Assembly: GCF_010119195.1 (NCBI RefSeq)
Contig: NZ_WRXL01000002.1
Span: 248,001 to 312,000 of the forward strand
Source: Haloarcula salina
Lineage (GTDB): Archaea; Halobacteriota; Halobacteria; Halobacteriales; Haloarculaceae
Reading direction: 5' to 3'
Length of the DNA stretch: 64,000 nucleotides
The notes under the pieces are model-generated. The model worked only from the letters and a program-made list of their open reading frames with translations, ran no database searches and was not told where the DNA came from. The translations under genes were made by a program, and so were the position numbers. This document shows, piece by piece, positions 12,942-42,307 of the stretch (the stretch's first letter is position 1; each line of letters starts with the position of its first letter).

Positions 12942-13490
12942 ATGGACCGCCGGACCAGCAAAGTCCTTCGTGGCGTCGCCGCGGCGCTCGTGTTCGCGAC
13001 GGCCGCGTTTCACCTCTGGTGGGGTCTCCCGCGGAGCATCATCTACGCGCAGGCGATGGACGGACTCCTCGGTCAGGGACTGCCGCCGGACCCGCGTCCG
13101 TTCCTGTTCGTCGCCTTCGCCGCGCTGTTGCTGGCCGGCCCGTACCTCGTGACCCGTGGCGTCGTCGGCCTCCGGAACGCCTACCTCGCCGGCATGCTCC
13201 TCATGGTCGCGTCCATCGCCGCGTGGGTGTTCTGGCACGCCACCGGCCACGGCGCGTTCCTCGTCGACGGCTTCTCCGCCCCCTCCTCGGGCGGTAGCGG
13301 CCACCACAACGGAGGCAGCACCGTCCTGCTGATACTGGACCACTTCAACACCGAACCGGTGGAGTCGGCGATCAAGACCATCGAGGCCGTCGCGGCCGCG
13401 ATATTCGTCACGCTGCTGTGGAGAGACCCCGCGATACTCCCGGCCGAACGCCGGGACCGCGCGGAGTCGAACGCGTCCAGCGATTCGTAG
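12942..13490 (+). CDS. Uncharacterised membrane protein
   Basis: 182 residues with four hydrophobic segments (about 8-27, 52-70, 78-100, 142-160), a His/Gly-rich loop (SSGGSGHHNGG) between the third and fourth, and a charged C-terminal tail. No family recognised. Monocistronic as far as can be seen: GlpR ends 64 nt upstream, and the gatB-derived repeat region begins 9 nt after its stop. Its transcript would therefore run into the repeats antisense to gatB. Confidence 0.75.
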   Translation: MDRRTSKVLRGVAAALVFATAAFHLWWGLPRSIIYAQAMDGLLGQGLPPDPRPFLFVAFAALLLAGPYLVTRGVVGLRNAYLAGMLLMVASIAAWVFWHATGHGAFLVDGFSAPSSGGSGHHNGGSTVLLILDHFNTEPVESAIKTIEAVAAAIFVTLLWRDPAILPAERRDRAESNASSDS

Positions 13491-13499
13491 CTCGCCCTC

Positions 13500-13540
13500 T
13501 TACCCGTCCAGTTCCTCGCGCAGCAGTCCGTTCACGTCAC
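13500..13540 (-). repeat. gatB 3'-end duplicate, copy A (short)
   Basis: On the minus strand it reads DVNGLLREELDG followed by TAA, matching the last codons of gatB (GDVNGLLREELN, stop TGA). The match begins abruptly after the element at 13542, so this is a fragment and not a gene. Confidence 0.85.
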
Positions 13541-13541
13541 C

Positions 13542-13602
13542 CCACCTTTTTCGACCTCGGGTGCGCTCCCGTCGGTCGCGCACCACTCGTCGAAAAATCT
13601 GG
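13542..13602. repeat. 61-bp inverted-repeat element, unit 1
   Basis: Ends CCACCTTTTTCGAC and GTCGAAAAATCTGG form imperfect terminal inverted repeats. At positions 19-43 of the unit, GGTGCGC pairs with GCGCACC across 11 nt. Unit 2 has the same length and the same layout. Confidence 0.75.
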
Positions 13603-13648
13603 ACCAAAACGCGCTCGTTCGCTCGCCCCGCTCGCTCACGACCGTGAA

Positions 13649-13667
13649 CCGTGGCCGACGGCCACGG
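13649..13667. repeat. Perfect 8-bp hairpin with GAC loop
   Basis: CCGTGGCC, loop GAC, GGCCACGG. It lies directly before copy B of the gatB tail and is part of the inserted DNA, not of gatB. Confidence 0.6.
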
Positions 13668-13671
13668 ATGC

Positions 13672-13738
13672 TACCCGTCCAGCTCCTCGCGCAGCAGTCC
13701 GTTCACGTCGCCGGGGTCGGCGCTCCCGCCGGTCTTGC
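13672..13738 (-). repeat. gatB 3'-end duplicate, copy B (long)
   Basis: About 67 bp matching the end of gatB with few differences. The minus strand reads KTGGSADPGDVNGLLREELDG then TAG (13671-13673), against KTGGSADPGDVNGLLREELN then TGA in the gene. Similarity stops just before the second 61-bp element. Confidence 0.88.
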
Positions 13739-13740
13739 TG

Positions 13741-13801
13741 CCACCTTTTTACTCGTTGGGTTCGCTCGCTGCGCTCGCGAACCGCGCCTCGAAAAACGTG
13801 G
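13741..13801. repeat. 61-bp inverted-repeat element, unit 2
   Basis: Ends CCACCTTTTT and CTCGAAAAACGTGG; inner hairpin GGTTCGC/GCGAACC at unit positions 19-43. Compared with unit 1 the fourth stem pair has changed from G-C to T-A, keeping the pairing. On the gatB (minus) strand the right end gives a T-run, so it may serve as the gatB terminator. Confidence 0.75.
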
Positions 13802-13807
13802 GCGAAA
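13789..13807 (-). terminator. T-run downstream of gatB, shared with maeB
   Basis: On the + strand TCGAAAAACGTGGGCGAAA; read on the minus strand it ends in a T-run about 35-50 nt past the gatB stop. The identical 19 bases occur at 42267-42285 just past the maeB stop, so it is probably a recurrent terminator sequence. Confidence 0.5.
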
Positions 13808-13837
13808 ATGCCGCTCACTCCCGACGGTCGTTCGCGG

Positions 13838-15352
13838 TCAGTTTAGCTCTTCTCGCAGCAGCCCGTTCACGTCGCCGGGGTCGGCGCTCCCACCGGTCTT
13901 CTGCATGACCTGGCCCACGAGGAAGTTGAGCGCGCCGTCCTCGCCGGCGTGATAGTCGGAGACCGCGTCGGGGTTCTCGTCGATAGCGGCTTCGACGGCC
14001 TGCTGCACCTCGTCGCCGGAGGTCTTGCCGAGGCCCTCGCGGTCGACGATGGCGTCGGGGTCGTCGCCTGTGTCGAGCATCTCCCGCAGGACCGTCTCGT
14101 GGGCGTTCTTGGCGGTGATCTCGTCCTCAGCGACGAGTTCGACCAGGCGCGTCACCTCGTCGAAGCGGTCGTCCAGGTCGGTGATTTCCATGTCGCGGTA
14201 GTTCAGTTCGCCCAGTAGGTTGTCGGCGACCCACGTGGCCGCGAGGTCGGCGTCGAAGCGCTCGGCGACGCTCTCGAAGAAGTCGGCGACCTGCTTCGTG
14301 CTGGTGAGCTTCGACGCCGCTTCCTCGCTCAGGCCGTACTCGGCGACGAAGCGCTCGCGGCGGGCGTCGGGCAGTTCCGGGATGGGGACCTCGTCTTTCC
14401 AGTGGCTGACCCGCAGCGGGGGCAGGTCGGCCTCCCGGAAGTAGCGGTAGTCCTTCTCCTCCTCCTTCGAGCGCATCGACACCGTGTTGCCGTGGGTCTC
14501 GTTGAAGTGGCGGGTCTCCTGCGCGACGGCGCGGCCCGACTGGATGAGCTTGCGCTGGCGCGAGGCCTCGAAGGCGAGGGCCTGCTCGGCCCCCTTGTGG
14601 CTGGAGATGTTCTTGACCTCGGTTCGGTTGGCGTCTTCGAGCACCGCGTCGTCGATGTCGCCGCCCTCGCCCACCTCGTCGGCGTCGACCATCGAGAGGT
14701 TCGCGTCGATGCGGAGGCTGCCGTCCCGGGTCGCGTCGAAGACGCCGAGGTACTCGAGGACTTCTTCGAGCTTTTCGAGGAAGGCGCGGACCTCGCCCGG
14801 CGCGCGGAAGTCCGGTTCGGTGACGATCTCCATCAGGGGCGTGCCGGCGCGGTTGTAGTCGACGAGCGTGTAGTCCGCGCGCTCGATGGAGCAGGTCCGG
14901 GACTCCAGCGGGCCGGTCCCTTCACGGACGTGCTTGATGGAGCCGGGGTCCTCTTCGAGGTGCGCCCGTCGGATATCGACGCTCCGGCGCTCGCTCTCGA
15001 CGGCGAACTCCAGTTCGCCGTCCTGGCAGATGGGCGAGTCGTACTGCGTGATCTGGAAGTTCTTCGGGAGGTCGGGGTAGTAGTAGTTCTTCCGGTGGAA
15101 CGTCGTTTCTTCGGGGATGTCGGCGTCGATGGCCTTGCCGACCTTCACCGCCGCCTCGACGGCCCCCTCGTTGACCACGGGGAGCGCGCCGGGCAGGCCG
15201 AGACACACCGGGCACGTGTGGGTGTTGGGCTCGGCGTCGGCGACGTCGGTCGAACAGCCACAGAAGATCTTCGTCTCCGTCTCGAGCTGGACGTGGACCT
15301 CCAGCCCGATGACGGCCGCGAGGTCGCGGGACTCGGACGCTTGTGCGGTCAT
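13838..15352 (-). CDS. gatB: Aspartyl/glutamyl-tRNA(Asn/Gln) amidotransferase subunit B
   Basis: 504 residues, full length. GatB is the kinase/transamidase subunit that converts Asp-tRNA(Asn) or Glu-tRNA(Gln) to the amide with GatA and GatC. Seen: GLEVHVQLETETKIFCGC at the N-terminus, the zinc-site cysteines (FCGC and CPVCLG), EDPGSIKHV and NRAGTPLMEIVTEPDF of the cradle domain, and the C-terminal YqeY-like tRNA-binding domain ending VGQVMQKTGGSADPGDVNG. gatA and gatC are not in the window. A TATA-like CTTTAG at about 15378-15385 makes the ATG at 15352 probably leaderless. The last residue (N, TGA) differs from both downstream fragments (DG). Confidence 0.95.
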   Translation of the reverse strand: MTAQASESRDLAAVIGLEVHVQLETETKIFCGCSTDVADAEPNTHTCPVCLGLPGALPVVNEGAVEAAVKVGKAIDADIPEETTFHRKNYYYPDLPKNFQITQYDSPICQDGELEFAVESERRSVDIRRAHLEEDPGSIKHVREGTGPLESRTCSIERADYTLVDYNRAGTPLMEIVTEPDFRAPGEVRAFLEKLEEVLEYLGVFDATRDGSLRIDANLSMVDADEVGEGGDIDDAVLEDANRTEVKNISSHKGAEQALAFEASRQRKLIQSGRAVAQETRHFNETHGNTVSMRSKEEEKDYRYFREADLPPLRVSHWKDEVPIPELPDARRERFVAEYGLSEEAASKLTSTKQVADFFESVAERFDADLAATWVADNLLGELNYRDMEITDLDDRFDEVTRLVELVAEDEITAKNAHETVLREMLDTGDDPDAIVDREGLGKTSGDEVQQAVEAAIDENPDAVSDYHAGEDGALNFLVGQVMQKTGGSADPGDVNGLLREELN

Positions 15353-42092: not shown

Positions 42093-42266
42093 GCGGCCGG
42101 CCGCAGTGAGCGTCCCGGAACCGGCGGCGATAGCGTCGTCGCTCGGCTCTCTTTCTGAACCCGCCGACGCGCGGCGGCCGTGACGGGGCCTGAGACCGCG
42201 GTTCGGTGACCGGCTTGCACACCGGTGATGTCACTCGATTCGGCCGATAGTACCACCAGAAAGGAG

Positions 42267-42285
42267 TCGAAAAACGTGGGCGAAA
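42267..42285 (-). terminator. T-run downstream of maeB, identical to the one after gatB
   Basis: TCGAAAAACGTGGGCGAAA, the same 19 bases as 13789-13807. On the minus strand it gives a T-run ~25-40 nt past the maeB stop. Here no matching CCACCTTTTT left end is present, so it is a solo half. Confidence 0.5.
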
Positions 42286-42307
42286 CGCGCCCGCGTCGCT
42301 CGCGTGT

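Follow-up and report, generated by a model that had tools for sequence, protein, structure and literature searches.

Hairpin elements behind gatB in Haloarcula salina belong to an apparently undescribed family that often lies between duplicated gene tails

Short palindromic elements that encode no enzyme are known from mitochondria, where the GC clusters of yeast (GC42) and the double-hairpin or repetitive hairpin elements of other mitochondrial genomes have variable stem sequences, are patchily distributed, and are exchanged between species by homologous recombination in their flanks (PMC4478555, PMC2800124). Prokaryotic MITEs are likewise small, noncoding, intergenic, and patchy between relatives, with inverted-repeat ends, and REP/BIME-type and DUS-type palindromes lie at gene 3′ ends, where some act as terminators. 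In T6SS/Rhs arrays, incoming DNA anchored in the conserved part of a gene is proposed to push the old 3′ part downstream (PMC5361080). Here we describe two hairpin elements behind the gatB gene of Haloarcula salina, in a window of 64,000 nucleotides (the whole stretch of DNA that was analyzed). The mobile GC cluster of yeast mitochondria is the nearest analogue found, but GC42 has a 2-nt putative target duplication (AG), whereas the sequence duplicated at the archaeal elements is a gene 3′ end of 26 to 145 nt, and these chromosomal elements also have fixed T5/A5 arms and are placed behind terminators. The T6SS/Rhs arrays import a new toxin or immunity module, whereas here only a hairpin element is found, with the same gene tail on both sides, at many unrelated housekeeping genes. 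REP/BIME-type and DUS-type palindromes occur in hundreds to thousands of copies, compared to about 20 copies in this genome, and the gene-tail duplication is a further difference. Literature searches, including searches with the core sequences as text, returned no description of the element, although they covered only open-access papers and not ISfinder, so an earlier description is possible.

The gatB gene (13838–15352, minus strand; Pfam GatB_N and GatB_Yqey) is followed, in its own direction, by hairpin 1 (CCGC..GCGG) and a T tract (CATTTTCGC) at 13802–13837, and then by the first element, T1 (13741–13801), which belongs to the CGCCCACG subtype. A second copy of the gatB 3′ end, with its stop codon, occupies 13671–13740; it starts directly at the T1 right end, GGTGG, and contains one extra C after 3 nt. 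The next segment (13603–13670), which is shared with the closest relative (genome G004; G numbers denote the genus genomes examined), contains CATCCG-hairpin 0 at about 13649–13668-CGGTTCACGG, a degenerate hairpin 1, and CGTTTTGGT leading into the second element, T2 (13542–13602), of the GGTCCAGA subtype. A third, shorter copy of the gatB 3′ end, again with a stop codon, lies at 13500–13541, and the convergent gene (12942–13490) ends 9 bp further on. Apart from the convergent gene, these features are read on the minus strand, and the duplicated tail corresponds to 13841–13900 of gatB itself.

The sequence-only reading had described two 61-bp inverted-repeat units with a compensated stem change, and this observation was confirmed. 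Both 61-nt units are present, and fold prediction placed the inner stem at positions 19–25/37–43 in each, with arms that differ by one compensated pair (G-C versus T-A). T2 folded far better than shuffled sequences (z about −6 on either strand), whereas T1 was weaker (z −2.1 on the plus strand and −2.7 on the minus strand) because its middle part does not pair. A covariance model built from 24 relatives, with both elements in the training set, scored T1 at 80 bits and T2 at 75 bits on the minus strand and found about 20 copies genome-wide at E < 0.01. Three corrections were needed. The elements are directional and are read in the gatB sense (T2 scored 75 bits on the minus strand and 24 on the plus strand); the shared 61 bp is not diagnostic, as 147 distinct relatives range from 51 to 73 nt, with 60, 52, and 53 commonest when counted without the first C; and the three copies of the gatB 3′ end that flank the units had been missed.

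On the gene strand, the family core is CCACGTTTTTC, hairpin 2, and GAAAAAGGTGG, usually preceded by a hairpin and TTTTTCG, with fixed outer arms (CCACGTTTTT / AAAAAGGTGG). The strict pattern occurred in 31 of 32 genus genomes and in 61 of 293 order genomes, where it was concentrated in the window's own family, Haloarculaceae; the reversed-pattern control gave none. Named hits were mostly Haloarcula, Halomicroarcula, Halomicrobium, Halorientalis, Halosimplex, and relatives. In 24 members of the 60-nt class, the structure was kept in 99.3% of cells, with 34 double-change cells against 7.5 in shuffles (covariation 0.266 against 0.069), and sliding the partner dropped pairing to 62.5% or less. Only the inner stem varies; the outer arms are invariant and say nothing about pairing. 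These results support a maintained palindrome, but they do not by themselves distinguish selection from palindrome-correcting mutation, since template switching of that kind would also produce covariation. No Rfam covariance model matched the region 13000–14200 up to E = 1, which provides no support for a known RNA family. Viral carriage was also considered, but the three viral-contig hits look like chance matches; the two that were read are AT-richer and lack the palindrome.

Of 158 elements with flanks, 74 carried, at or within a few bases of GGTGG, a direct copy of the sequence upstream of the element, usually the end of the upstream gene with its stop codon, whereas only 2 of 158 did so when flanks were swapped. 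These duplications were scored by local alignment, so old ones are missed. The copy started at offset 0 in 29 cases and mostly at 4 to 6 in the others; realignment showed that in 34 of 74 a single extra base, 27 times C, follows about the third base of the copy, as at window position 13737 (the T1 junction), and we found no explanation for this base. By coarse clustering, in which a few clusters lump different genes or tandem copies, about 35 gene sites are involved, with 15 clusters having more than one member; no copy could be traced from one gene to another. Gene names other than gatB were assigned from C-terminal peptides rather than a family search. In fresh, non-tandem cases (L004, L009, L124, L131, L157, L171, and L185; L numbers denote individual element loci) the copy runs through the gene's own hairpin and T tract, so that the element sits immediately behind the T tract. 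The named set was chosen with a pattern that includes the T tract, so we counted T tracts only among 40 elements found without requiring it: 38 had T4 or longer within 16 nt upstream, against 1.5% of control positions. The position behind T tracts, the single precise end at a stem base with variable duplication length, the extra base, and the strong stem covariation would also fit an RNA-mediated, retro-like or SINE-like propagation, in which an RNA or cDNA joint at the transcript 3′ end gives a long variable duplication as in target-primed reverse transcription. We consider this reading very unlikely, as it presently rests on neither a linked reverse transcriptase nor expression data, and stems at orthologous sites are often unrelated.

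With heuristic gene calls, the gene on the hairpin-1 side points toward the element in 91 cases and away in 20, and divergent settings are rare (3 of 152). Elements without a tail copy abut the next feature: 29 of 39 convergent neighbors have their stop codon 0 to 6 nt from GGTGG, and in 20 of 39 (e.g., L073, L103, L190, and L215) the distance is 0 to 1 nt, as if the element filled the intergenic space exactly. Four elements lie beside tRNA genes, and codirectional genes have a median start distance of 45 nt, about the room a core promoter needs. Ends kept to the last base suggest that the whole element is functional. A hairpin plus T tract at gene 3′ ends in the appropriate orientation, with T5 on both strands, is what a bidirectional terminator would show, and we infer from sequence alone that this is the most likely function.

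We next considered whether the family could be a MITE-like DNA transposon moved in trans by a transposase that makes unusually long, variable target duplications, such as are reported for IS1549/IS1634-type elements; the tail copies would then be target duplications and the gene-end placement would reflect survivorship. The arms resemble terminal inverted repeats, fresh cases have clean duplications bounded by the element, and filled and empty sites occur in sister genomes (G016 and G019, at gatB). However, a check by pattern positions found no larger segment with the same ends in the H. salina genome, and no transposase turned up among the six neighboring ORFs tested (ABC ATPase, DeoR-type regulator, one without a family, GatB, DUF7518, and SMC). 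In addition, the flanking duplications are long and variable instead of short and fixed as in a classic MITE, the orientation bias is not expected for a near-symmetric element, copies within the genome differ in stem sequence and length, and identical copies listed in relatives are mostly local arrays. Pooled mismatches between tails fell 31/23/110 on codon positions 1/2/3, more biased than neutral decay of a spare copy should give, which disfavors a plain target duplication followed by such decay; although the pooled sites are not independent, we read this bias as recombination with other species. We therefore regard a classic MITE, and likewise the variant with long target duplications, as unlikely.

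Comparison across the genus indicated horizontal movement. T1 with its junction differs at 3 of 138 positions (97.8% identity) between H. salina and G031, inferred to be H. vallismortis, while gatB is 89.4% identical. The closest relative, G004 (93.3%), has gatB directly followed by T2 and lacks T1. The second tail copy of H. salina matches G031 for its first 26 nt and then follows G004, and is thus a mosaic. T1 and T2 are different subtypes with different tail junctions, hence independent arrivals; this result, together with the presence of T2 without T1 in G004, led us to reject the single tandem duplication that had been named beforehand as a refutation of the sequence-only reading. T1, T2, and the elements of G016 and G005 have four different tail junctions at gatB, so the joining has recurred at one gene. 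G012 retains the altered gatB tail and a partial tail copy but no element, consistent with deletion at a short GAACG repeat. Within a genome the two tails are about 93% identical, while downstream tails of different species are about 80% identical. At pheT, which like gatB shows patchy presence across the genus, H. salina and G004 share the junction and a similar element, yet each has two matching tails that differ between the species; the first bases of the copy can keep changes shared between species while the rest follows the local gene. The T1 identity and the homogenized tails disfavor purely vertical inheritance with decay.

An alternative is that the elements are not mobile but are old, native bidirectional terminators of their gene pairs, and that tail duplications arise when incoming DNA of another species, carrying gene tail plus terminator, is anchored by homology in the gene and joined illegitimately at its other end (homology-facilitated illegitimate recombination). 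The exact fit between genes of elements without a tail copy, the synonymous divergence of tails, the transfer of T1 with its junction, and the similar displacement model for T6SS arrays (PMC5361080) are consistent with this view. We nevertheless consider it unlikely, because it does not explain why the illegitimate joint always falls at or within a few bases of the stem base GGTGG, nor the fixed arms across unrelated genes.

The explanation that we favor, with only moderate confidence, is that T1 and T2 are two independently acquired members of a family of non-autonomous palindromic elements, found mostly in Haloarculaceae, that lie directly behind a gene's terminator hairpin and T tract. In this model, when an element arrives at a gene, the 3′ end of that gene (26–145 nt detected, in fresh cases up to the T tract) ends up on both sides of it, so the gene stays intact, and the two tails are direct repeats that recombine, although the model does not specify how, or by which enzyme, the right end (GGTGG) is first joined to a gene tail. 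Our comparisons demonstrate the family, its covariation, the tail copies on both sides of elements with the gene left intact, their homogenization, the tandem (tail+element) arrays, and one interspecies transfer, that of T1 by homologous recombination through the gene tails; by contrast, function as two-way transcription terminators or insulators, and clean loss of the element by recombination between tails, are inferred. About half of the elements have no detectable tail copy, so duplication may not accompany every arrival, stems at the same gene in different species are often unrelated, which simple descent of one element does not explain, and the extra C near the junction is also left unexplained. 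A more speculative and, in our view, unlikely reading is a homing-like element without an enzyme of its own: a terminator hairpin whose precise stem-base end is joined, perhaps through RNA or a hairpin-cutting nuclease, to the tail of the gene it terminates, so that each arrival would duplicate a gene 3′ end that then serves as the homology arm for spread to other species and for clean loss.

The sequence-only interpretation, which had proposed a MITE-like element, a terminator family, or a small structured RNA, was thus supported in part: further copies exist in many haloarchaea, the stem covaries, placement is terminator-like, the absence of a nearby transposase held for the ORFs tested, and empty sites were found, whereas the MITE option was not supported. 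If the favored explanation is correct, some intergenic hairpins of Haloarculaceae are not static terminators but a recombining, horizontally exchanged class of element that displaces and duplicates the 3′ ends of core genes (gatB, pheT, and others) without breaking them. The gene-tail duplication would then be a clear marker for gain, loss, and interspecies recombination, and the exact stem-base junction points to a specific joining activity.

The subtype with linker GGTCCAGA or similar, instead of CGCCCACG, was also found in the H. salina genome at contig C8 (280381–280440), C1 (362493), and C7 (549369), and in L185; in L185 and in the window it is the downstream element of a mixed pair. Tandem arrays of identical (tail+element) units were observed in G005 (3 units of 186 bp at each of two places, C1:56512–56935 and 3341576–3341999) and in G011 (4 units of 170 bp, C1:1319199–1319777). 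Elsewhere in the window, at 42266–42288 on the minus strand, a left half of the same element (TTTCGCCCACGTTTTTCGA) without a right end lies shortly behind the end of a malic-enzyme-like gene, at which relatives carry complete elements with tail copies (L126 and L155).
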